A stretch of DNA of 64,000 nt from Terriglobia bacterium (GTDB lineage Bacteria; Acidobacteriota; Terriglobia; Bryobacterales; Bryobacteraceae): NCBI GenBank assembly GCA_020073145.1, contig JAIQFS010000009.1, positions 62,001-126,000 on the forward strand, in the 5' to 3' direction. The translations under genes were made by a program, and so were the position numbers. Position 1 is the stretch's first letter. Every line of letters begins with the position of its first letter. The notes beneath the pieces were generated by a model. It did not search any database, had not been told where the DNA came from, and worked only from the letters and a program-made list of their open reading frames with translations. Positions 3,997-28,239 of the stretch are shown piece after piece.

Positions 3997-5438
<1,442 letters not shown>

Positions 5439-15209: not shown

Positions 15210-15575
15210 ACCGGGGCCAGGAACCGCGCAAAACCCAAATTGAGACACCGGAGAAAGTGTTAAACCCTGTTGCATGCAGGGGCTAGCTCTTGACACGGAA
15301 CCATCCGACTTATATAATCCTCAACCAGGATCACTAAATCCGGACAGGACCTGCTCCTCGCTTGCAGGCTTGCCGGGAGACGAAATTTTAGGGAGTGCAA
15401 CGTTGCAGCAGCCGGATTCCGGCTTGGCCGCATCAGTTGGGGCTAATCGTTGAGCGAATTTCCAGCACGGTATTTGCATGCTCCATCTGCTGGCGCACGT
15501 CAGCACTTCCATGCCCAGCCACACAGTGGCGTCTTGGCTGGCCCTTCCAATCCAACCTCACGGAGAACAACCTCA
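15210..15575 (+). other. Intergenic region with promoter and long structured leader of the TonB receptor gene
   Basis: No gene is supported in these 366 nt. They hold the promoter at 15290-15318 and a roughly 250-nt untranslated leader. The leader includes a perfect 12-bp palindrome TGCAACGTTGCA (15396-15407) and a hairpin with 5-bp arms GCCGG/CCGGC (15411-15423), then a ribosome-binding GGAGA at 15562-15566. The frame of the receptor is open from 15450, but the signal peptide fixes the start at 15576. Confidence 0.6.
15290..15318 (+). promoter_or_regulatory. Consensus sigma-70 promoter of the TonB receptor gene
   Basis: TTGACA (15290-15295), a 17-nt spacer and TATAAT (15313-15318) match the consensus exactly. 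This is the strongest promoter sequence seen in the window. It implies a leader of about 250 nt before the receptor start. Confidence 0.85.
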
Positions 15576-18500
15576 ATGAAGTCTCTTTTGGTCACATTTT
15601 GTCTGCTGTTATCGGCGTCCGCGGCGTTCGGCCAAGCGGGTTCGGCAACCATTACCGGCGCCATCGCCGATCCAGCCGGGGCCGTAATTTCCGGCGCCAA
15701 CATTGGCGCCAGAAACCTGCAAACCGGCGTGAACTATCCGGTGGTCAGCACCACCACGGGAAACTACACCATCTCCCAGTTGCCGGTCGGCCAGTATGAG
15801 GTTTCCGCCACGGTACCGGGCTTCAAGAGGTTTGTGCGCTCGGGCATTACCCTGGACGCCGCGCAGGTGGTCCGCATCGACATCGGCCTGGAAGTCGGCC
15901 AGGCGACGGAGTCGGTCACCGTCCAGGCCGATGCTTCGCTGCTGAAAACCGAGACTGCCGATGTGGTGCATAACATTACTCTCGAGCAGTTGGACAACCT
16001 GCCCATTCTGGGAATCGGGAACTCGAATGCCGGCAGTTCCGGCGTCCGCAATCCGTACAGTTCGGTGCAATTTGTTCCGGGCGTGGCGTACGTCGCCAAC
16101 TCGTCGATGGTCATCAACGGAGCGCCCACCAATACGGCGGCGTATCGCGTGGAGGGCATGGACAACACCAACCATACGGTCGCTTTTGCGTTGCAGGAGA
16201 ATCAGCCCTCCGCGGACGCGATCCAGGAGGTTGCGGTTCAAACCAGCGACTACGCGCCCGAATTTGGAACGGCGGGCGGCGGGTTGTTCAACATCACGAT
16301 GAAGTCGGGCACGAACCAATACCACGGCAGCGGATACGATTATTTCGTCAATGAAGATTTGAACGCGGCGCAGCCGTTCAGTAACAACCCAGCCGGAACC
16401 GGCAACATCCGGCCGCGCAACCGCCGCAATGATTTCGGCGGCACGCTGGGCGGTCCGATCGTGATTCCGAAGGTCTACAACGGCCATGACAAGACCTTCT
16501 TTTTCTGGAGTTACGAGCAATTTAAAGAGAGCTCGCTCATTCCTTTCAACCTGACGCTTCCCACCGCCGCCTATCGCGGCGGCGATTTTTCAGGGATCTC
16601 GGTGAATGGCGGGGCGTCCCCAGCCGCGCTCCAGGCCCTGGGCGTTCCCACCACGCCGCTGGCTTCGACCGACTCGCTGGGCCGTCCGATCTACGCGAAT
16701 ACCATTTACGATCCCGCTACCGTTCGCGCTGGAAACGGCGGGATTCCGGTGACCGATCCCTTCCCGAATAACATGATTTCACCGGCGCGCTTCGATCCGA
16801 TGGCCAAGGCCGTCCAGGCGCTGATCCCGAATCCGACGAGCACCGCCCTGAACTTGAACGGGCTCGGTTCCAACCTCAGCCAGCGGGACACGACGATTCC
16901 GTCGCTCAAATTGGACCAGGTGACGGGCACGAAAGGCCAGTTATCATTCTATTGGTCAACCACACAGACCGACAGCCAGTTTTCCACGCCGAATGGAAAC
17001 GCGGACGGGTTGCCCGACGAGATCTCGCAGAATCGCGGCACGTTCATTCACGCTCAGACGCTGCGGTTGAACTATAACTACACCCTGAGTCCGACCGTGC
17101 TGCTGCACGTGGGAGCGGGCTACTCGCGCATCAGCTTTATCGACGATGCGGCCTTCAAGACGTTTAATTGCGCCGCGGCAATCGGCCTGCAAGGCTGCCA
17201 GAATAACTTCAACTTTCCCACATTTACGCAGATGACCGGCGGCCCCCTCACCCTGCTCCCCGGCGGAGGGAGTGTCGGCAGTCTGGGCGGCATGCAGCAG
17301 ATGGGCAATGCCCAAGCACATACGCATACCCGTACCGAAAGACCGGCGTATAACGCCAATGCCACCTGGGTCAAAGGAAACCACAGCTACAAACTCGGTG
17401 GTGAGGTCTGGTTCCAGGGCAACATCACCGCGCCGCCTTCGGGCGTTCTTTTCAGCGCCACGACGTTTGCGCCCATCACCAACGTGATTACCAACGCGGG
17501 TGCAACCGCGCTCCCCTTCACCCCGCCGCTCGGGTTGTCCGGACAGCAAGTCGGATTCCCCTACGCCAACTTTCTGCTCGGCGACTACACCCGGATTAGC
17601 CAGAGCGCGCCGACCGACACCCGGATGGGCAAGGCCCAATGGGCGCTCTATCTGCAGGATTCCTGGAAGGTGAGTCGCAAGCTGACTCTGGACTACGGCC
17701 TACGCTGGGATTACGCGACGTTGCCGGTGGAGCAATATGGCCGGTCGGCCGATTTCTCCGCGACCACGGCGAATCCGTCAGTTGGAGGGCGTCTCGGCGC
17801 GCCCGTTTTCCAGGCGACGTGCAATTGCTCGTTCGCCGGAAACTACCCCTATGCGATCGGCCCGCGGGTCGGAGCCGCTTACCAGATCAATCCGAAGACG
17901 GTGCTTCGCGTCGGATGGGGCTATGTCTACGGATTTGCCAACGATATTGGCGTCTCCAGTTCGGCCATTGTGAACAATGATGCGGCCGGACCGAACGCGT
18001 TTTCCAATATTCAGACGAGCGGACTACCGCAACCGGTTTGGCCGAATTTCGCTGCCGGCCAAACGCCTCTTCCCGGTGCGATCTCCAGTTCTTTCACGCT
18101 GAATGCGATCGATCGGAACGCCACCCGGCCTCCCCGCCAGAACCAGTGGAGTATCGGGTTGCAGCGGGAGATCACGTCGAACTTCTCGCTCGAGGCAGCC
18201 TACGTGGGCAACCGTGGCGTGTGGTGGAGCGGTCTTGGCCAGGGAGCCAATCTCGGGTTCGTCAATCAAGTCTCGCCGGCTGTGTTTTCGCAGTATGGGC
18301 TGGATCCATTCCACAACCCGAGCGATGCGCTGCTTCTGAGCCAGCCGATTTCCAGCGCGCAAGTGGTGGCCAGGATTCCGAACCTCCCGTTGCCGTACGT
18401 GGGTTATCCGACGAACAGCAGCCTGCTCAACGCGCTGCGGCCCTACCCGCAGTTCAGCACGCTGACCGTCACCAATGCACCTACGGGAAAGACGTACTAC

Positions 18501-19271
18501 GATTCCCTCCAGGTCAAAGTCACCAAGCGCATGTCGCACGGCCTGTCAGTGAATAGCACGTTCACGTGGTCGAAATCGCTCATCAATACCCGGGAGAACT
18601 TCTTCGACGCGTCGAGTTCCAGCAAGACGTTCCAGACCACGGACCAGCCGTTTCTGTTAAACGCCAACATTCTGTACACGACGCAAAAGGCAGCCTTCCT
18701 GGACAACGTCAAGTTCGCCAACACAATCGTGAAGGACTGGCAACTGGGCGCCTTCCTGCAATATGGCAGCGGATTTCCGCTGACTCCCCCGACCGCCACG
18801 ACGGCCAATCCCCTTACCTCAGACGTGGGGGTGACGAACTACATGATCCGCAACCCGAATGTGTCCCTGTATAACAAGGATCTGAATTGCCACTGTATCA
18901 ACCCCTATACGGATCAGATGTTGAATCCGGCCGCCTGGTCGAATCCGGTAGCGGGCACGTACGGTCCGAATGCGCTGTACGGCGATTTCCGCGGACCGCG
19001 CCATCCCAACGAAAGCTTTAACATCGGGCGGAACTTCCGGATTAGAGAACGGATGAATCTCCAGATCCGGGCCGAGTTCGTGAACATTTTCAACCGGACC
19101 TACCTGGGGAATCCGAGCACCGTGAATCCTCTCGCTGCGCCTTCCCACAACCCGGCAGGACAGATTACCGGCGGGTTTGGAACGGTCAACGCCACTGCGA
19201 TCGCGGGCGCGTACCCCTCCATCGGTGGTCTTCCGCGCACGGGCACTCTGGTCGCCCGCTTCACGTTCTAA
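15576..19271 (+). CDS. TonB-dependent outer-membrane receptor, Oar-like
   Basis: A 1231-residue outer-membrane protein. It has a signal peptide (MKSLLVTFCLLLSASAAFGQ), a carboxypeptidase-regulatory-like domain (residues 22-105, ATITGAIADPAGAVISGANI), a plug region (residues about 110-240, with SDYAPEFGTAGGGLFNIT) and a large beta-barrel ending in RTGTLVARFTF with the C-terminal aromatic. This architecture is the Oar/SusC-like receptor type greatly expanded in Acidobacteriota, thought to import oligosaccharides or other large compounds using TonB energy. The start has GGAGA 9 nt upstream. The ORF ends before a terminator, and oxidoreductase genes follow. Ligand is unknown. Confidence 0.93.
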   Translation: MKSLLVTFCLLLSASAAFGQAGSATITGAIADPAGAVISGANIGARNLQTGVNYPVVSTTTGNYTISQLPVGQYEVSATVPGFKRFVRSGITLDAAQVVRIDIGLEVGQATESVTVQADASLLKTETADVVHNITLEQLDNLPILGIGNSNAGSSGVRNPYSSVQFVPGVAYVANSSMVINGAPTNTAAYRVEGMDNTNHTVAFALQENQPSADAIQEVAVQTSDYAPEFGTAGGGLFNITMKSGTNQYHGSGYDYFVNEDLNAAQPFSNNPAGTGNIRPRNRRNDFGGTLGGPIVIPKVYNGHDKTFFFWSYEQFKESSLIPFNLTLPTAAYRGGDFSGISVNGGASPAALQALGVPTTPLASTDSLGRPIYANTIYDPATVRAGNGGIPVTDPFPNNMISPARFDPMAKAVQALIPNPTSTALNLNGLGSNLSQRDTTIPSLKLDQVTGTKGQLSFYWSTTQTDSQFSTPNGNADGLPDEISQNRGTFIHAQTLRLNYNYTLSPTVLLHVGAGYSRISFIDDAAFKTFNCAAAIGLQGCQNNFNFPTFTQMTGGPLTLLPGGGSVGSLGGMQQMGNAQAHTHTRTERPAYNANATWVKGNHSYKLGGEVWFQGNITAPPSGVLFSATTFAPITNVITNAGATALPFTPPLGLSGQQVGFPYANFLLGDYTRISQSAPTDTRMGKAQWALYLQDSWKVSRKLTLDYGLRWDYATLPVEQYGRSADFSATTANPSVGGRLGAPVFQATCNCSFAGNYPYAIGPRVGAAYQINPKTVLRVGWGYVYGFANDIGVSSSAIVNNDAAGPNAFSNIQTSGLPQPVWPNFAAGQTPLPGAISSSFTLNAIDRNATRPPRQNQWSIGLQREITSNFSLEAAYVGNRGVWWSGLGQGANLGFVNQVSPAVFSQYGLDPFHNPSDALLLSQPISSAQVVARIPNLPLPYVGYPTNSSLLNALRPYPQFSTLTVTNAPTGKTYYDSLQVKVTKRMSHGLSVNSTFTWSKSLINTRENFFDASSSSKTFQTTDQPFLLNANILYTTQKAAFLDNVKFANTIVKDWQLGAFLQYGSGFPLTPPTATTANPLTSDVGVTNYMIRNPNVSLYNKDLNCHCINPYTDQMLNPAAWSNPVAGTYGPNALYGDFRGPRHPNESFNIGRNFRIRERMNLQIRAEFVNIFNRTYLGNPSTVNPLAAPSHNPAGQITGGFGTVNATAIAGAYPSIGGLPRTGTLVARFTF

Positions 19272-19294
19272 AGCCTGCATAACACGAATCAAAA

Positions 19295-19327
19295 GGCCTC
19301 GTCCCTTACCGGGGGCGAGGCTTTTTT
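19295..19327 (+). terminator. Rho-independent terminator after TonB receptor
   Basis: Arms GCCTCG (19296-19301) and CGAGGC (19316-19321), extended by CCC/GGG pairing with a bulge, are followed by six T residues (19322-19327). Confidence 0.85.
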
Positions 19328-19339
19328 CGTTTTTCGGGC

Positions 19340-19352
19340 GCGTGATACAATC
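19340..19352 (+). promoter_or_regulatory. Extended -10 element before sorbosone dehydrogenase gene
   Basis: GCGTGATACAATC contains TGA followed by TACAAT, an extended -10. The same 13 bases occur at 26475-26487 before the second GMC gene, at almost the same distance (12 versus 13 nt) behind a matching terminator. The -35 region would fall in the terminator T-tract and is poor. Confidence 0.55.
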
Positions 19353-19379: not shown

Positions 19380-20685
19380 ATGCGCGCGCTTCGTCCGATT
19401 CTTCTCGCTTGCTTGCCTGTGACCGCTGCGTGGATTTCCGCGGCTGCCGCGGATAAGATCGACTCCAAGCACCTGGTCACCGGGCCGGCCGCGTTCGGAA
19501 ATGCGCCCTCGCTGAAACCCGGAACCTACCACAAGATCACCGCTGCCGATCTTCCGGCGCCGTTCGCCACCGAGTCCAGCCGGAACAACGCCAAGATGGT
19601 GCCGCGGCCCAATAACGCGTGGCCGCAGGCGCCGGCAGGCTTTCAGGTAGATCTCTACGTGACCAAGCTGGATCAGCCGCGCAAGATTCTCACGGCGCCC
19701 AATGGCGATTTCTTCGTTGCTGATAGCCGCCAAGGCGCGATCCAGATTTTTCGCGGCCGTGACGCGGATGGCCGGCCGATGCGGACGTCCACGTTTGCGA
19801 AGGGCTTGCGGCAGCCCTTCGGGATCGCGTTCTATCCAGCCGGAGCCAATCCGCAATGGGTCTACGTCGGCAACACCAATTCGGTGGTCCGGTTCGCGTA
19901 TCGGAACGGCGACATGGAAGCCGCTGGGCATGCGGAAACCGTTGTTCCGGAGTTGCCCGCGGGAGGTGGGCACTGGACGCGCGATCTGGCTGTTTCCAAG
20001 GATGGCAAGAGTCTGTTCGTGGCAGTCGGCTCGGCGTCGAATATCAATGATCCGGATTCCAATCCGAACGAAACGCACCGCGCTAATATTCTCGAATACA
20101 CGCCCGATGGAAAATTCGTAGGCGTGTACGCGTCGGGTATTCGCAACCCAGTGGGGCTGGGTATCAATCCGGCGACCGGCGAGCTGTGGTGCTCCACCAA
20201 CGAGCGCGACGCGCTCGGCGATAACCTGGTGCCCGATTACATCACCCACGTGCAACGCGGCGGTTTCTACGGCTGGCCGTATTACTACATCGGCAACCAT
20301 CCGGATCCACGGCTCGAAGGGAAGCATCCGGAGTTGAAGGATAAGGTGATTGTCCCCGACGTCCTGATGACGCCGCACAACGCCTCGCTCGCGCTGACGT
20401 TTTTACGACGGTACGCAGTTTCCGCAGGAATACCGCGGCGATCTGTTTGCGGCCGAGCACGGGTCCTGGAATCGGTCGACGCGGTCCGGCTACGAAGTGG
20501 TGCGCGTGCCTCTGGAAGGCGGCCATGCCAGCGGCGTGTATCAGGATTTTCTGACGGGTTTCGTGCTGCCGAACGGCGATGTGTGGGGCCGGCCGGTGGG
20601 GGTCGCAGTAGCCCAGGACGGCGCGTTGATGGTGACCGACGACGGATCCGGATCCATTTGGCGCATCACGTACGCCGGGAAATAA
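19380..20685 (+). pseudogene. L-sorbosone dehydrogenase-like secreted propeller, interrupted by a one-base frameshift
   Basis: The reading frame begins at ATG 19380 (GGAGG just upstream) with a signal peptide and encodes a six-bladed propeller of the sorbosone/glucose dehydrogenase family (GFQVDLYVTKLDQPRKILTA, then ELWCSTNERDALGDNLVPDY and GFYGWPYYYIGNHPDPR). At the run TTTTT (20400-20404) the frame is lost: frame 1 gives nonsense to 20702, while the next frame continues the family exactly with YDGTQFPQEYRGDLFAAEHG to the stop at 20685. Removing one T restores a ~434-residue protein. This may be a sequencing error in a homopolymer, a true mutation or slippage. The intact protein would oxidise a sugar aldehyde or alcohol in the periplasm; it heads the group with the two genes below. 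Confidence 0.85.
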
Positions 20686-20694
20686 GGAGTTCGC

Positions 20695-21297
20695 ATGGCT
20701 GAGGAGAAGCCCTCTTTCGAGATTACGCGCCGTACCGTCATCGCCAGTGCCACGCTGGTTCCGGTGACGGCGCTGACGGCGTCCGCGCAGAGTCCGCCCG
20801 CGGCGCTGACCGCAGCGCAGAGGCAGATTCTGGAAGCATTCGTCGACCGGCTGTGTCCGAAGGACGATCTGGGCGCGGGCGCGGTCGAGTGCGGCGCGGC
20901 CAACTATATCGACCAGCAACTCGCGGGCTACCTGTCGTCGGAGAAGGAGGCGATGGTCGCCGGGCTGGCCGCGGTGGACGCCTACGCGCGCAATTCGCAG
21001 GGCGGCCCTTTCGCCGGACTCTCAGCCGAGAAGCGGGATGCCATTCTGACCGCGGTGGAGAACGGCTCGGCTGCTGGAGTACCCAACGGGCGCGCGTTCT
21101 TCACTCGCCTGCGTCGTCTCACGTTGGAAGGCATGTTCGGCGATCCTTACTATGGGGGCAATACCAACTTCGCCGGCTGGGATTTGATCCAGTATCCGGG
21201 ACCGCGGTTGGCGGTTGGGCCGGAAGAACAGAAGATGAGCAAACCGGCGACGCCCTACCATCGGTCGGCCTGGGGGACCGAGCACAGTGGCCATTAA
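20695..21297 (+). CDS. Gluconate 2-dehydrogenase subunit 3 family protein with Tat signal
   Basis: A 200-residue protein with a twin-arginine signal (ITRRTVIASATLVPVTALTA) and the subunit 3 fold (LTAAQRQILEAFVDRLCPKD, then GAANYIDQQLAG and a C-terminal FAGWDLIQYPGPR). In known gluconate dehydrogenases this small subunit carries the folded FAD-containing large subunit through the Tat pathway. The next gene encodes the GMC large subunit and overlaps this one by 11 nt, which supports a complex. The usual third partner, a multiheme cytochrome c, is not found here, so electron transfer must use another carrier. It starts 9 nt after the sorbosone dehydrogenase stop. Confidence 0.9.
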   Translation: MAEEKPSFEITRRTVIASATLVPVTALTASAQSPPAALTAAQRQILEAFVDRLCPKDDLGAGAVECGAANYIDQQLAGYLSSEKEAMVAGLAAVDAYARNSQGGPFAGLSAEKRDAILTAVENGSAAGVPNGRAFFTRLRRLTLEGMFGDPYYGGNTNFAGWDLIQYPGPRLAVGPEEQKMSKPATPYHRSAWGTEHSGH

Positions 21298-23005
21298 TCT
21301 GAAGCCGGTGGACGTAGCCGTCGTTGGGCTGGGCGCGGCCGGCGGCGTGGCCGTGCTGCCTCTGGCGCGCGCCGGTCTGACGGTGGCCGGCATCGAAGCC
21401 GGCGCGTGGATGGACCCCGCCAAGGATTTTCACGCGGACGAAATCTTCAACAATGTCCGCGGAATGGTCACCACCGGCAATAAGATCCGGCGCGAAGCGC
21501 CCACGTTTCGAACCAGCGCGGATCAGCCGGCCCAGCGGGGCGGGCCGAGCCCCATGATGAACGCTGTAGGCGGCACTTCGATTCACTATCACGCCCAGAG
21601 CTGGCGTCTGAAGCCTTGGGACTTCAAGACCGTTTCGGAAGTGAAGAAGCGCTACGGGGCCGGTTATCTGCCGAAGGGCTCGACCGTGGAAGACTGGCCG
21701 CTGAGCTATGACGACCTGGAGCCGTACTACGACACCGTAGAGCACGAAGTGGGTGTGTGCGGCAAAGCCGGCAACCTCAAAGGCGTGCTGGATCCGGCGG
21801 GTAATGTCTTCGAAGGTCCGAGGGCGCGCGAGTATCCCATGCCGCCGCTGCGCACCACCGATTACCTGGAGCACATGAAGGAGGCGGCGCGGTCGCTGGG
21901 CTGGAAGCCCTTCCATTCGCCGGCTGCAATCAATTCGCAGCCGCGCGGCGGCCGCCCCTCCTGCGGCTATCACGGCTACTGCGACCGCGGCGGATGCCAT
22001 TTGCGCGCCAAGAACTCGACCTGCTTTTCGACCATTCCGGCGGCGCTCAAGACCAAGCGCCTGACCGTCTTCGACCGAGCGCAGGTGACCCGCATCCTCT
22101 CCGACACCAATGGAAGGGTGACTGGCGTCCAATACATCCGCGAAGGCCAGGAATATTTCCAGCCGGCTAAAGCCGTGCTGATCGGTTCCTACACCTATGA
22201 GAACGCCCGGCTGCTGCTGCTCTCGAAATCCAAGGCCTACCCGAACGGTCTGGCCAACAATCACGGGCAGGTGGGGAAACACTACTTCGGGCATTGGGAC
22301 GCGCAGGCCGGGTCCGGTGTCACCGCTCTGTTTCCGATGGACCTGAACATCTGGTATGGAGCGATTCTTTCGCAGGGAGTGGTGATCGACGAATGGGCCG
22401 ATGATAGTTTCGATCACTCGAGCCTCGGCTTCATCGGCGGCGCCAGCATGACGGTGAACACGGAAAAGCATCCCATTGCCGCGGCTTCGACCGCAACCTT
22501 CGGGCAAGCGCCGCAGTGGGGCTCGCAGTGGAAAGCCTGGATTCACGAGAATGCCGGGCGCACGGCGTCGGCCTATCTGCAGGCCAATAGTTTTCCGTAC
22601 GAGAACACGTATCTCGATCTGGACCCCGAGGTGAAAGATCCGCTGGGCGACTCGGTGATTCGCGTGACCAGCGGGCCCAAGGACAACGAACGCCTGGCGT
22701 CCCTGCACGCTCAGGACAAGATGGAGGAGTGGTTCAAGGCGGCGGGCGCCCTCATGGTGACTAAGGGCAATCCACTCGGCCCCCGGCTGAGCACCCACAC
22801 GTATGGCGGCACGCGCATGGGCGACAACCTCGAGACGAGCGTGGTGGACCGGTGGGGCATGGCGCACGAGGCGCCGAACCTGGGGATGCTGGGCGGCTCC
22901 GTATTTGGAACCAGCGGCGCTCGCAACCCCACGCTCACCATCCAGGCGCTGGCCTGGCGCACCGCCAGCCATCTGGTGAAGAGCTGGAAATCGATCGCGG
23001 GGTAA
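21287..23005 (+). CDS. GMC family FAD oxidoreductase, copy 1 (gluconate dehydrogenase large-subunit-like)
   Basis: A 572-residue flavoprotein. The N-terminal dinucleotide-binding motif is VAVVGLGAAGGVAVLPLA; the FAD-contact loop is MNAVGGTSIHYHAQSWRLKP; the C-terminal catalytic histidine region is STHTYGGTRMGDN, ending with GTSGARNPTLTIQALAWRTA. It has no signal peptide and probably rides out with the Tat subunit encoded just upstream. It would oxidise a sugar acid, sugar or alcohol in the periplasm. The GTG start at 21287 is supported by the paralogue at 26527, whose protein begins with the same residues MAINLKPVDVAVIGLGAAGG from an ATG. Confidence 0.92.
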   Translation: MAINLKPVDVAVVGLGAAGGVAVLPLARAGLTVAGIEAGAWMDPAKDFHADEIFNNVRGMVTTGNKIRREAPTFRTSADQPAQRGGPSPMMNAVGGTSIHYHAQSWRLKPWDFKTVSEVKKRYGAGYLPKGSTVEDWPLSYDDLEPYYDTVEHEVGVCGKAGNLKGVLDPAGNVFEGPRAREYPMPPLRTTDYLEHMKEAARSLGWKPFHSPAAINSQPRGGRPSCGYHGYCDRGGCHLRAKNSTCFSTIPAALKTKRLTVFDRAQVTRILSDTNGRVTGVQYIREGQEYFQPAKAVLIGSYTYENARLLLLSKSKAYPNGLANNHGQVGKHYFGHWDAQAGSGVTALFPMDLNIWYGAILSQGVVIDEWADDSFDHSSLGFIGGASMTVNTEKHPIAAASTATFGQAPQWGSQWKAWIHENAGRTASAYLQANSFPYENTYLDLDPEVKDPLGDSVIRVTSGPKDNERLASLHAQDKMEEWFKAAGALMVTKGNPLGPRLSTHTYGGTRMGDNLETSVVDRWGMAHEAPNLGMLGGSVFGTSGARNPTLTIQALAWRTASHLVKSWKSIAG

Positions 23006-23058
23006 TCGCGCCGCGGCACGATCTTGAGGAAATCCCTGGCCGCCGTGCCCATGGCGGG
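23006..23058 (+). other. Possible relic of a Tat-signal gene at a deletion junction
   Basis: Read in frame after the GMC stop, this stretch gives SRRGTILRKSLAAVPMAGW, which looks like a twin-arginine signal (SRRxxxxK, then hydrophobic). The frame then runs into receptor DNA in the wrong phase and stops. No start codon precedes it. It could be the start of a lost Tat-exported protein left at the join to the truncated receptor, or chance. Confidence 0.3.
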
Positions 23059-26000
23059 ATGGAACACGCAGTCCTTATCACGCTCGAAGTGGGTGCGGCT
23101 ACCGAGTCGGTCACGGTGAGCGCGGATGTCAGCCTGTTGAAGACCGAGAGCAGCGACGTCAGTCATAACGTTACCGGCGACCGCCTGACGAGCCTCCCGA
23201 TCCTGCCCATTGGGAACGGATATTCGAGTTCCCACGGCGTGCGGAATCCGATGGCCATGGCCAACCTGGCCCCTGGCACCTATTTCGATCCCAACCTGAA
23301 CATCCGCGTCAATGGCGCGCCCAGCAACACCGAGAGCGTCCGCCTGGACGGACAGGACGCCACCAACGGCGTGGTGACGTTTTCGCAGGCCCAGACGCAG
23401 CCCAGCGTAGAGGCTCTGCAGGAGCTTTCGATTCAGACCAGCAACTATGCCGCGGAGTATGGACAAGCCGGCGCGGGTCTGATCAACTACACCACCAAGA
23501 GCGGCACAAACCAATACCACGGCTCGGGCTACGACTACATCGCCAACGAGTTCTTCAATGCGTCGCAAGCTTACAGCCACCTCACGCCGAAATTGCGGAG
23601 ACAGAATGGCGGCGGCACGCTGGGCGGTCCGGTATATATTCCCAAGATCTACAATGGGCACGACAAGACGTTTTTCTTCTTCAACTATGAGTTTTTCAAG
23701 GAAACCGGGCTCCTCTCCAGCCAATTCCCCACCGTGCCGACCGACGCTTACCGCAGCGGCGACTTTTCGTCGCTGCTGGCTCCCCCGCTGGCCCGGGCAC
23801 TGACCGGCACCGGCGGCGTCACCCAAGACGTGGCTGGACAGCCCTTCCTCAATGGTCAGATTTTCGATCCCAGTTCACAGTTCATCGGGTCCGATGGCCG
23901 CCGTGTCTGGTCTCCGTTCTCCGGCAATCAGATTCCGCAGCCGCGCTTCGATCCGTCGGCCGTCAAGGTGCTGAACCTGATTCCGCACGCATCCCTTTCG
24001 GGCCTGCTCAGTAACTACAACAATCCCTATCTCACAGACCGGTGGACTTCGATTCCGGCGGTCAAGATCGATCACTCGTTCAGTTCCAAGATGAAGCTGT
24101 CCTTCTATTGGTCCGCGACGGCGACCGCAGTGCAATATTGCACGCCGCTGTGCGGATCCGACGGCCTGCCGAACCCGATTACGGCCACGCGCGGCACTTT
24201 TATTGAGTCCCACACCGAGCGCCTCAACTTCGATTACACCCTGACACCGACCATGCTGTTGCACATCGGCGCGGGCTATCAGCACAACGACTTTAAGGAC
24301 ACCGCGCCCACCACGAACTTCGATCTGGCCGGTCAATTAGGGATCAAGGGCGCTACCGTGGGTCCCAATCAGGGCGCGCGGTTCCCGGTTTTCCAGGGAA
24401 TGTTGGGCGTCAACAGCACGGGCGGTATGAACACCATGGGGCCCGCAGCCGGACAGACCCGCAGCATCGAGATCAAGCCGACTTTCAACGCCAGCGTGAC
24501 CTGGGTTAAGGACAATCACACCTTCAAGTTCGGCGGCGACGGACGCACGGAGGGATACCCACAGATCAGCCCCTTCAATACCACCGGCAATTTCACAATC
24601 GGAGCCGACCAGACTGCCAACCCCTGGCTCTCTGACGCTGGAATCACGCTGTCGGGTGGAGCCCAGGGATTCCCCTTTGCGAGTTTCCTGCTGGGCCGGG
24701 TGAGTTCCTACATCATTGCGCAGCCTACGGACACACGGGGCGGACGAAAGTTCCTCGCATTTTTTGCACAAGACACCTGGAAGATGAGCCGCAAGCTGAC
24801 GTTGGATTACGGCCTGCGATGGGATTACTTCGGTTATTCCCGCGAGCAGTACGGCCGGACCCCGGATTTCTCGGCCGCCGTGGCGAACGCCAACGCGGGC
24901 GGACATCTAGGCGCCGTGATTTTCGAGGGGAATGGGCCGGGCCGGTGCAACTGTGACTTCGCCCACAATTATCCCTATGCACTCGGACCGCGCCTCGGTG
25001 TGGCGTATCAGATCGACGCGAAGACCGTGCTTCGGGCCGGCCTTGGCGTCACCTATTCCAGCAGCTCCGGCGGAGCGCAGGGAGCAGCGGGCGCCAGCCA
25101 GACCGTCAATGTGCCGGGTGCCGGAATTCCCGCGATGGTTCTTAGCCAGGGCATTAATGTAACGCCGGTTTGGCCCGATATCCGGCCGAACCTGTTTCCG
25201 TTGCCCGGTCAGACTCCAGCAGTGAGCATTGTCGATAACAACTCCGGCCGTCCGGCCCGGCAGGTGCAGTGGAGCGTCGGACTGCAGCGCGAGATTCTCC
25301 ATGACCTGGTGGTCGAAGCGGCCTATGTCGGCAACCGGGGCGCGTGGTGGCGCACCTCTTCGCTCACCGACTACAATCTGCTTTCACCGGCGATCCTGGC
25401 GGCGAACGGGCTAAACGTGGCCAATGCCGCGGACCGCAATATCCTGAAGGCCCAGATTTCGCAACCGGCGGCAGGCCGTTTTCTGAACCAGTTGCCGTAT
25501 GCCGGCTTCCCGGCAACGGCCACCGTGGCCCAGTCGTTGCGGCCGTTTCCGCAGTTCGGCAGTATCACCGGTCCGGGTCCCTTAGGTAGGACCTGGTATG
25601 ACTCGCTGCAAGTGAAAGCCACCAAGCGCCTCTCCCGCGGTCTGGACCTCACCTATACCTTCACCTGGGCCAAGGAACTCATGCTGGGCGCCGACAGCGA
25701 TACGGGCGGAGGCGTAATTAACGACATCCTGAACCGCGATACCAACAAACAGCTCTCCAGTTTCTCGCGGCCTTTCTGGCATGTGCTGGCAGTGAACTAC
25801 ACGCTCCCCAAGTGGGGACCCAACCGGTGGGTGAAGTCGGCTGTCTCCGACTGGACGATTGGGTCCGTGGTGCAATACGGCAGCGGACAGCCAATTCAAG
25901 TTCCGAACACGGCCGCCAGCGACCTGAATACCGCGCTGCTGCGGGCGGGAACACTGCACGCCCAGCGCGTTGCGGGTCAACCGCTGTTCCTGGCGGATCT

Positions 26001-26403
26001 GAACTGCCATTGCTACGATCCATCGAAGACTCAGGTGCTGAATCCAGCAGCCTGGACGGATCCGGCCGCCGGCACATTCACAACTTCGGCGATGTATTAT
26101 GGCGATTATCGGTATGAACGCCGGCCCAAGGAAACGATGAGCTTTGGCCGCCTCTTCCGAATCCGGGAGCGGGTCAGCCTGCAAATCCGCGCGGAGTTCC
26201 AGAATATCTTCAACCGCACCCAGGTCCCGAACCCGCAGATGGGGGTCCCAGGATTCGGAGCGCCACCCATCAGCTACGCCACTCCGTTGAGCAAGACTCC
26301 CACGGGTACCTACAATGGCGGCTTCGGATCCATCTTTACGACGCCGGGCAACGCCGTGATTGGCGAGCGTTCTGGTTTGCTCGTGGCCCGCTTCTCCTTC
26401 TAG
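23059..26403 (+). pseudogene. TonB-dependent receptor copy 2, lacking signal peptide and N-terminal domain
   Basis: From ATG 23059 the frame encodes 1114 residues that follow the first receptor closely (ITLEVGAATESVTVSADVSL beside LEVGQATESVTVQADASL), through plug (SNYAAEYGQAGAGLINYT) and barrel to the C-terminal GLLVARFSF. About 96 residues are missing at the front: the signal peptide and nearly all of the regulatory-like domain. Homology begins abruptly at about 23070, only 60 nt after the GMC stop, with no promoter or leader. Without a signal peptide the product cannot reach the outer membrane, so the gene is probably dead, although the remaining frame has no stop, which suggests a recent event or an assembly error. 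The frame is formally open from 22852, but that part overlaps the GMC gene. Confidence 0.85.
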
Positions 26404-26428: not shown

Positions 26429-26461
26429 AGCCTCGGTGCCTTCGGGCAGCGAGGCTTTTTT
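26429..26461 (+). terminator. Rho-independent terminator after receptor copy 2
   Basis: Arms GCCTCG (26430-26435) and CGAGGC (26450-26455), with an inner TGCC/GGCA stem around TTCG, are followed by six T residues (26456-26461). The outer arms and the T-tract followed by CGT match the terminator at 19295. Confidence 0.85.
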
Positions 26462-26474
26462 CGTGGGGGACCGT

Positions 26475-26487
26475 GCGTGATACAATC
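26475..26487 (+). promoter_or_regulatory. Extended -10 element before GMC copy 2
   Basis: Same 13-base sequence as at 19340-19352, with TGA next to TACAAT. It is 39 nt before the ATG at 26527. Confidence 0.55.
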
Positions 26488-26526: not shown

Positions 26527-28239
26527 ATGGCCATCAACCTGAAACCCGTCGACGTCGCGGTGATCGGGTTGGGGGCGGCCGGCGGGGTGGCGGTGTTGCC
26601 TCTGGCGCGCGCCGGACTCAAGGTCGCCGGTATCGAAGCCGGCACCTGGATGGACCCACGCCAGTTCCGGCCGGACGAGATCTACAACAACGTGCGCATG
26701 CAGGTGACCTCCGTTCCCAAGACGAAACGCGAGGTGCCCACCATTCGCGAGAGTCCCGCGATGCCCGCTCGGCCCGCGCCCAGCCATCCCATGATGAACG
26801 CCATCGGCGGGACTTCGATCCATTATTGGGCGCAGAGTTGGCGGCTGAAGCCGTGGGATTTTGCGGCGCGCACGGAGACCATCCGGCGTTATGGGACGAG
26901 CGCGCTTCCGGCGGGTACGACGCTCGAAGACTGGCCGCTGCGGTATGAGGACCTCGAGCCGTTCTATGACCGGGTGGAGCGCGAGATTGGCGTGTCAGGA
27001 AAGGCCGGCAACATTCAAGGGAGGCTCGACCCGGCCGGCAACGTGTTTGAAGGCCCGCGCCAGCGGGAATACCCCATGCCTCCGCTGCGCGGCACCGAGT
27101 TCACCGAACGCATGGCCGAGGCCGCACGCAAGCTGGGGTGGCGCCCCTTCCGTCCCCCGGCTGCGATCAACTCGCAGCCTTATCGCGGGCGTCCCAGCTG
27201 CGCCTATCATGGCTACTGCAGTTTCGGCGGGTGCCACATCAGCGCCAAGAACTCGACCGCGGTCACCACCATTCCGGATGCGGTCAAGACCAAGAACCTG
27301 ACGATCTTCGACCGCGCTCAGGTGACGCGCATTGCCGCCGGTTCCGATGGCCGCGTGACCGGCGTCCACTATCTGCGTGGCGGCCAGGAGTATTTTCAAC
27401 CCGCGCGTGTGGTGTTGGTGGCGTCGTACACCTACGAGAACTCGCGCCTGTTGCTGCTGTCCAAATCGAAGCCTTATCCCAAGGGGTTGTCCAACCGCCA
27501 CGGCCAAGTCGGCCGGCACTACTTCGGCCACTGGTCGGGAGTGGCGGCGGGCAGCGCCATCGCCCTGTTTCCCTTCGACATCAACAACTGGTACGGCACG
27601 CCGGCGCAGGGCACGACGGTGGACGATTGGGCCGATGACCACTACGACCATGTCGGCGTCGGCTTTATCGGGGGCTCGTCTCTCCACGTGCATACCGAAA
27701 CCCATGCCATCGACGCCGGCGCCATGGAGACGTTCGGCCGCGCGCCGCTGTGGGGCTCGCGCTGGAAGGCATTTGTCCATGCCAACGCCGGACGCTGGAC
27801 CTCCGCTTATCTGCAGACTTCCACATTCCCGTACGAGAGCACGTTTCTGGATCTGGACGATAGGGTGCGCGACCCCGTGGGCGATCCGGTGTGCCGCATC
27901 ACGTCCGGGCCCAAGCAGAATGAGCTGCGGGCCGTGGCGTTCGCGCAGAGCAAGATGGCGGAATGGTTCCGGGCGGCCGGCGCCATCGAGGTGGTGAAGC
28001 CCGCGGCTACGGTTCCCGCGGTGAGCACGCACGCCTATGGCGGCACGCGCATGGGCGACAACCCCGAGACCAGCGTGGTGGACCGTTGGGGCTTTTCGCA
28101 CGAGGCGCCAAACCTGGGCGTGCTGGGCGCGTCCGTCATGGGAACCAGCGGGGCGCGCAATCCGACCCTCACCGTGCAGGCGCTGGCGTGGCGGACGGCG
28201 GAGCACCTGGCGAAGAACTGGAAGTCGATCGCCGGCTGA
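26527..28239 (+). CDS. GMC family FAD oxidoreductase, copy 2
   Basis: A 570-residue paralogue of the enzyme at 21287, colinear over its whole length. It keeps the dinucleotide motif VAVIGLGAAGGVAVLPLARA, the FAD loop MNAIGGTSIHYWAQSWRLKP, and the catalytic segment VSTHAYGGTRMGDNPETSV. It starts on ATG with GTTAGGAG a few bases upstream. Unlike copy 1, no subunit 3 gene precedes it, so its export route is unclear: it may share the Tat partner of copy 1, or work in the cytoplasm. Its own terminator and extended -10 separate it from the receptor pseudogene. Confidence 0.9.
   Translation: MAINLKPVDVAVIGLGAAGGVAVLPLARAGLKVAGIEAGTWMDPRQFRPDEIYNNVRMQVTSVPKTKREVPTIRESPAMPARPAPSHPMMNAIGGTSIHYWAQSWRLKPWDFAARTETIRRYGTSALPAGTTLEDWPLRYEDLEPFYDRVEREIGVSGKAGNIQGRLDPAGNVFEGPRQREYPMPPLRGTEFTERMAEAARKLGWRPFRPPAAINSQPYRGRPSCAYHGYCSFGGCHISAKNSTAVTTIPDAVKTKNLTIFDRAQVTRIAAGSDGRVTGVHYLRGGQEYFQPARVVLVASYTYENSRLLLLSKSKPYPKGLSNRHGQVGRHYFGHWSGVAAGSAIALFPFDINNWYGTPAQGTTVDDWADDHYDHVGVGFIGGSSLHVHTETHAIDAGAMETFGRAPLWGSRWKAFVHANAGRWTSAYLQTSTFPYESTFLDLDDRVRDPVGDPVCRITSGPKQNELRAVAFAQSKMAEWFRAAGAIEVVKPAATVPAVSTHAYGGTRMGDNPETSVVDRWGFSHEAPNLGVLGASVMGTSGARNPTLTVQALAWRTAEHLAKNWKSIAG

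Follow-up and report, generated by a model that had tools for sequence, protein, structure and literature searches.

A 5'-truncated TonB-dependent receptor gene between two GMC oxidoreductase genes of a Terriglobia bacterium

The receptor gene R2 in the 64,000-nucleotide stretch of DNA analysed here (the window; C22:62001-126000 of a soil acidobacterial genome, G000, of 6.32 Mb in 88 contigs) has lost its 5' end: the truncation is real, the signal peptide is absent, and R2 is unique in this among the relatives examined. We read the 5' end of R2 most readily as the margin of a block that was moved or duplicated. On balance we lean towards describing R2 as a 5'-truncated Oar-type receptor that derives from a block placed between the oxidoreductase genes GMC1 and GMC2 and is now a young pseudogene, with GMC2 possibly under a promoter carried by that block. 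The genes concerned all lie on the forward strand in the order R1, GSDH, G2DH3, GMC1, R2 and GMC2 (Table 1). Judged by the receptor, the nearest named relatives are metagenome-assembled genomes of Bryobacterales and Terriglobia, and the genome itself holds 79 stretches matching the receptor, with dozens of related TonB receptors.

Table 1. Features of the window around R2, in window coordinates
Feature	Position	Strand	Remarks
Promoter-like site 5' of R1	15290..15318	+	TTGACA-17-TATAAT, 12/12 sigma-70 consensus; consensus match only
R1, complete Oar-type TonB-dependent receptor	15576..19271	+	signal peptide, CarboxypepD_reg, plug, barrel; comparison reference
Terminator-like hairpin (19291-19326), then GSDH leader motif GCGCGTGATACAATC (19338-19352)	19291..19352	+	
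GSDH, glucose/sorbosone dehydrogenase family	19380..20702	+	frameshift near 20400 when compared with the intact gene of G003
G2DH3, gluconate 2-dehydrogenase subunit 3 family protein	20695..21297	+	
GMC1, GMC oxidoreductase	21287..23005	+	88% identity to G003 counterpart
Orphan spacer, 65 nt, GMC1 stop to first homologous R2 codon	23006..23070	+	no match elsewhere in the genome
R2, 5'-truncated TonB-dependent receptor, 1114 aa from first in-frame ATG	23059..26403	+	plug and barrel; lacks signal peptide and CarboxypepD_reg
Terminator-like hairpin and T run 3' of R2	26430..26461	+	consensus match only
GSDH-type leader motif GTGCGTGATACAATC, extended -10-like, 5' of GMC2	26473..26487	+	
GMC2, GMC oxidoreductase	26527..28239	+	68% identity to GMC1; adjoins GMC1 in G003

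The missing N-terminus of R2

The R2 open reading frame runs from a GTG at 22852 to 26403 (1183 aa), in a frame that is open from 22765 and traverses the 3' end of GMC1 in another frame. From the first in-frame ATG (23059) the 1114 codons contain no stop, bearing out the more than 1,100 open codons of the original prediction. The BLASTP alignment of R1 with R2 starts at I-x-LEVG, its leucine being R1 residue 105, just where homology had been proposed to begin. Recognisable homology begins at codons 23071-23077, with LEVG at 23083, and is separated from the GMC1 stop codon (23003-23005) by 65-71 nt, or 77 nt when counted to LEVG, close to the 60 nt first suggested.

The proposal that R2 has lost promoter, leader, signal peptide and a regulatory-like domain is likewise supported. 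Searches with Pfam identified CarboxypepD_reg (PF13620; E 3.1e-18) and OMP_b-brl_4 in R1, and OMP_b-brl_4 (E 1.4e-151) with CarboxypepD_reg absent in R2; the plug family PF07715 went unreported at E 0.001 for both proteins, and NCBIfam returned nothing for the receptors. Related receptor bodies were gathered by tblastn of the first 400 R2 residues against the fetched loci, keeping those in which the match starts at query residue 12 or earlier and leaving out later starts and bodies cut by contig ends. The N-terminal domain lies in frame directly upstream in 71 of the 72 distinct bodies obtained (E 1.7e-51 to 1.5e-14), R2 being the sole exception, which argues that its loss in R2 is no chance effect. 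Because the N-terminal profile was built from 11 own-genome paralogues that are all among the 71, the independent count is 60 of 61.

An alternative signal peptide in frame, which would have contradicted the truncation, is not encoded: the frame from 22765 to LEVG holds no hydrophobic stretch, with a best 12-residue hydropathy of 0.55 upstream of LEVG versus 2.33 in the R1 signal peptide. Before R2 we found no counterpart of the R1 promoter site; in R1 that site stands 258 nt 5' of the ATG, leaving a long leader. Ribosome-site pairing at the ATG at 23059 (-5.3, with the lower background quartile at -5.5) is no better than at random positions. The possibility that the missing N-terminus persists as a separate nearby gene was rejected: when the N-terminus of R1 was used as query against the own genome, the only hit in the interval from R1 to GMC2 was that of R1 itself.

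In the predicted structure of R2 (pLDDT 81, pTM 0.78) residues 1-25 are disordered and are followed by a plug and a barrel; the best fold matches in the PDB are TonB-dependent transporters (TM at most 0.49 by query length), and a PDB sequence search gave no match. Residues 15-21, ESVTVSA, lie within the stretch modelled as disordered and resemble what we take to be a TonB box motif. Taken together, these results put the cut past the N-terminal extension and ahead of the putative TonB box.

The GMC1-GMC2 locus and the flank before GMC2

In G003, a genome of the same genus, the order is GSDH-G2DH3-GMC1-GMC2 and the GMC1 stop is followed after 9 nt by the GMC2 ATG, with no receptor between them. 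The identity of the G003 counterparts to those of the window is 88% for GMC1 and 85% for GMC2. As G003 has no receptor at this place, R2 appears in the window as an extra block. In a GMC tree the GMC1 genes of the window and G003 group together (100/99), and GMC1 and GMC2 form old, separate lineages. A GMC2-like match at E <=1e-150 was obtained in 33 of 237 family genomes (best five candidates per genome), and among the matches listed from these best five candidates only the window genome and G003 carry two GMC2-like genes on one contig. No receptor directly follows GMC1 in G001, where the contig ends 169 nt on, or in G206 and G226, and GMC2-type genes in six genomes (G001, G002, G004, G208, G209 and G228) have G2DH3 directly upstream and no receptor. 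The family-genome searches scored the best few candidates per genome, in assemblies with many short contigs, so that a GMC1-GMC2 adjacency or other truncated receptors can be missed; within the same best few candidates per genome we found no donor locus in which an intact R2 is followed by GSDH. Comparison of orthologous loci thus returned no relative with a receptor here, and the deletion proposed for R2 is not established by it.

A decayed receptor remnant lies directly upstream of GSDH in G003 (L089, G003:C274, about 4640-5140, minus strand). It is R2-like by BLAST, but across all fetched loci the receptors L015 and L053 outscored R2, and we rejected it as the counterpart of R2.

The 3' flank of R2 resembles that of R1. 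The spacer between R2 and GMC2 aligns with the spacer between R1 and GSDH, the alignment covering the terminator-like hairpin and continuing into the motif GCGTGATACAATC; it scores 46, whereas 1000 shuffles gave no more than 25. The GSDH leader of G003 is identical at 26 of 28 nt. Allowing at most two mismatches, the 15-mer occurs four times in the genome, namely upstream of GMC2, of GSDH and of a GSDH paralogue on contig C68, and once on C53; a reversed control pattern occurs once. The stretch fetched around the C68 paralogue contains no match to a receptor, and the leader of this paralogue, aligned alone with that of GMC2, scores 29, within the range of shuffles (maximum 30). We read the GSDH-type sequence before GMC2 as a putative GSDH promoter that travelled with a receptor 3' end, and this promoter-like sequence may drive GMC2. 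A GSDH-type 3' flank, together with the receptor-free locus of G003, suggests that the 5' edge of R2 may coincide with the boundary of a block that was inserted or duplicated. More tentatively, and with some doubt on our part, the unit of R2, terminator and GSDH promoter might be a mobile promoter cassette that uncoupled GMC2 from its operon and brought it under GSDH-type promoter control, the useful part of the relic then being the 3' flank and not the receptor.

Origin and state of the truncated receptor

The remainder of R2 is well kept. Among the 122 columns in which the other receptors show at least 95% conservation, it departs from 1, ranking 6 of 40, and apart from the missing front the gene has neither stops nor frameshifts and has kept its conserved residues. 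Considered as a pseudogene, R2 has lost an essential part and shows no relaxed constraint in what is left. As the body is without decay, either the truncation is recent or the remaining protein is still constrained; dS to the nearest relatives exceeds 1.4 and is saturated, so that the two look alike in a dN/dS analysis of R2. Of the recent deletion originally suggested, the recency agrees with the undecayed body, and a simple deletion in place is not established.

The module has a second apparent lesion, the frameshift in GSDH. The intact G003 protein aligns with one frame over residues 27-343 and with the next over residues 343-436; identity is 83-84% and dN/dS low (0.056 and 0.079) on the two sides of the shift, which could be a real lesion or an assembly slip. 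In the own genome one receptor is split over two frames (L184, G000:C45:5000-13000) and another is a C-terminal fragment only (L183, G000:C77:75000-81000). A metagenome-assembled record labelled Bordetella parapertussis (L043, CALQCC020000012.1) holds two receptors of Bryobacterales type, and the organism label looks wrong; the second of the two has 19 of 127 conserved columns changed and runs off the locus end.

In the course of events that we favour, a local rearrangement would have brought in a block, now lying between GMC1 and GMC2, whose one end falls inside a receptor gene, just before the TonB-box and plug region; from there it would extend over the receptor stop and the terminator as far as a promoter and leader of GSDH type. 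The receptor front, with its promoter, signal peptide and CarboxypepD_reg domain, would have remained outside the block, which would explain the sharp junction. We infer that the block was inserted, not trimmed in place, and that the change relative to G003 ran in this direction. With regard to expression, we infer that the lack of a clear ribosome site would let little R2 product be made, that any product would, without a signal peptide, stay in the cytoplasm and have no function as an outer-membrane transporter, and that the terminator of the block would separate GMC2 from the GMC1 operon, leaving the GSDH-type promoter to take over GMC2.

Several alternatives have to be weighed against such an insertion. 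One is that the junction is an artefact of the metagenome assembly, either a collapse between repeated modules, as the original prediction had considered while calling R2 a second copy of R1, or a false join that linked GMC1 to the interior of a receptor gene located elsewhere. R1 and R2 are 44% identical over 1165 columns (BLASTP), and in a quickly built 40-receptor tree, with SH-aLRT support only, R2 groups with G028 and L042-L044 and R1 with three other receptors of its own genome. R2 is therefore not a copy of R1, and a collapse between the two is unlikely; their regions have no exact string longer than 22 nt in common. A false join, which we consider improbable, could draw on the dependence on a single assembly in 88 contigs and on the nearby GSDH frameshift, itself perhaps an assembly or base-calling slip. 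Against it, the junction has no repeat: its longest string in common with the rest of the window is 15 nt, and the spacer DNA (23000-23079) has no long match in the 6.32-Mb genome, the best non-self hit (E 0.235) spanning 19 nt, one of them mismatched. The window moreover contains no N, and on the far side of R2 stands GMC2, which belongs beside GMC1 as in G003. A 601-nt junction query had no match in phage records. It speaks against the favoured insertion that neither a transposase nor inverted ends nor a significant target duplication was found at the ends of the R2 block, where the longest direct repeat is 8 nt (equalled in 51 of 500 shuffles).

The reading frame of the GMC1 stop, which is out of frame with R2, spells SRRGTILRKSLAAVPMAGW across 23006-23080, a peptide resembling a twin-arginine signal. 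It could be a remnant of a lost 5' end if R2 was truncated in place, that is, if an ancestor had a complete R2 between GMC1 and GMC2, from which the window lineage lost the front in one deletion and G003 the whole receptor; however, the peptide has no homologue in five genomes of the genus (best non-self E 1.1). Deletion in place would fit the intact and conserved remainder of R2, and it takes as many events as an insertion if GMC2 and R2 arrived together. The decayed receptor at the neighbouring position in G003 shows that receptors have been lost in that lineage, so that R2 could have been lost there too, leaving the direction of change unfixed. Yet the 9-nt spacing of GMC1 and GMC2 in G003 is that of a tight operon and none of the relatives examined carries a receptor here, and we regard deletion in place, the main rival, as possible but rather unlikely. 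That R2 still works, as an extension-less receptor or as a cytoplasmic or decoy product made from the ATG at 23059 by read-through from GMC1, seems to us hardly credible, for all that its long open frame, its near-invariant positions and the predicted TonB plug-and-barrel fold speak for it. According to published work, losing the extension alone does not necessarily disable such a transporter: a Myxococcus Oar variant without its N-terminal extension was still functional, reaching the outer membrane and supporting PopC secretion (PMC6434023), whereas removal of the extension from Bt1763 stopped growth on levan (PMC7782687). Both variants apparently kept a signal peptide by design; R2 has none in frame. 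R2 also lacks a promoter and a clear ribosome site.

R2 as a block-derived, truncated gene would be a snapshot of receptor turnover, caught before the onset of decay. It looks like an ordinary receptor paralogue, recently inactivated in a rearranged oxidoreductase region, and promoter capture by GMC2 is possible. A perfect barrel in an open frame of 1,100 codons is no guarantee of a working receptor, although automatic annotation would probably name R2 one. Promoter capture, if true, would offer a simple route for an oxidoreductase out of its operon.

Comparison with known receptor systems

From the plug onwards R2 is like the Oar-type transporters (Myxococcus Oar; PF13620-plug-barrel), of which R1 and the 71 other bodies represent the complete form with an N-terminal extension; R2 differs in having neither the extension nor a signal peptide. 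In the SusC proteins of Bacteroidetes that carry an N-terminal extension, such as Bt1763, the extension precedes the TonB box, plug and barrel, and SusC chains (8aa4, 8aa0) are among the fold matches of R2, with no close PDB sequence match; here too R2 differs by lacking extension and signal peptide. A further parallel is the birth-and-death decay of receptor paralogues in large gene families of Acidobacteria, exemplified by the damaged receptors on contigs C45 and C77 of the own genome and by the G003 remnant; R2 is set apart from these decaying paralogues by a clean cut at one end only and an otherwise undecayed body.
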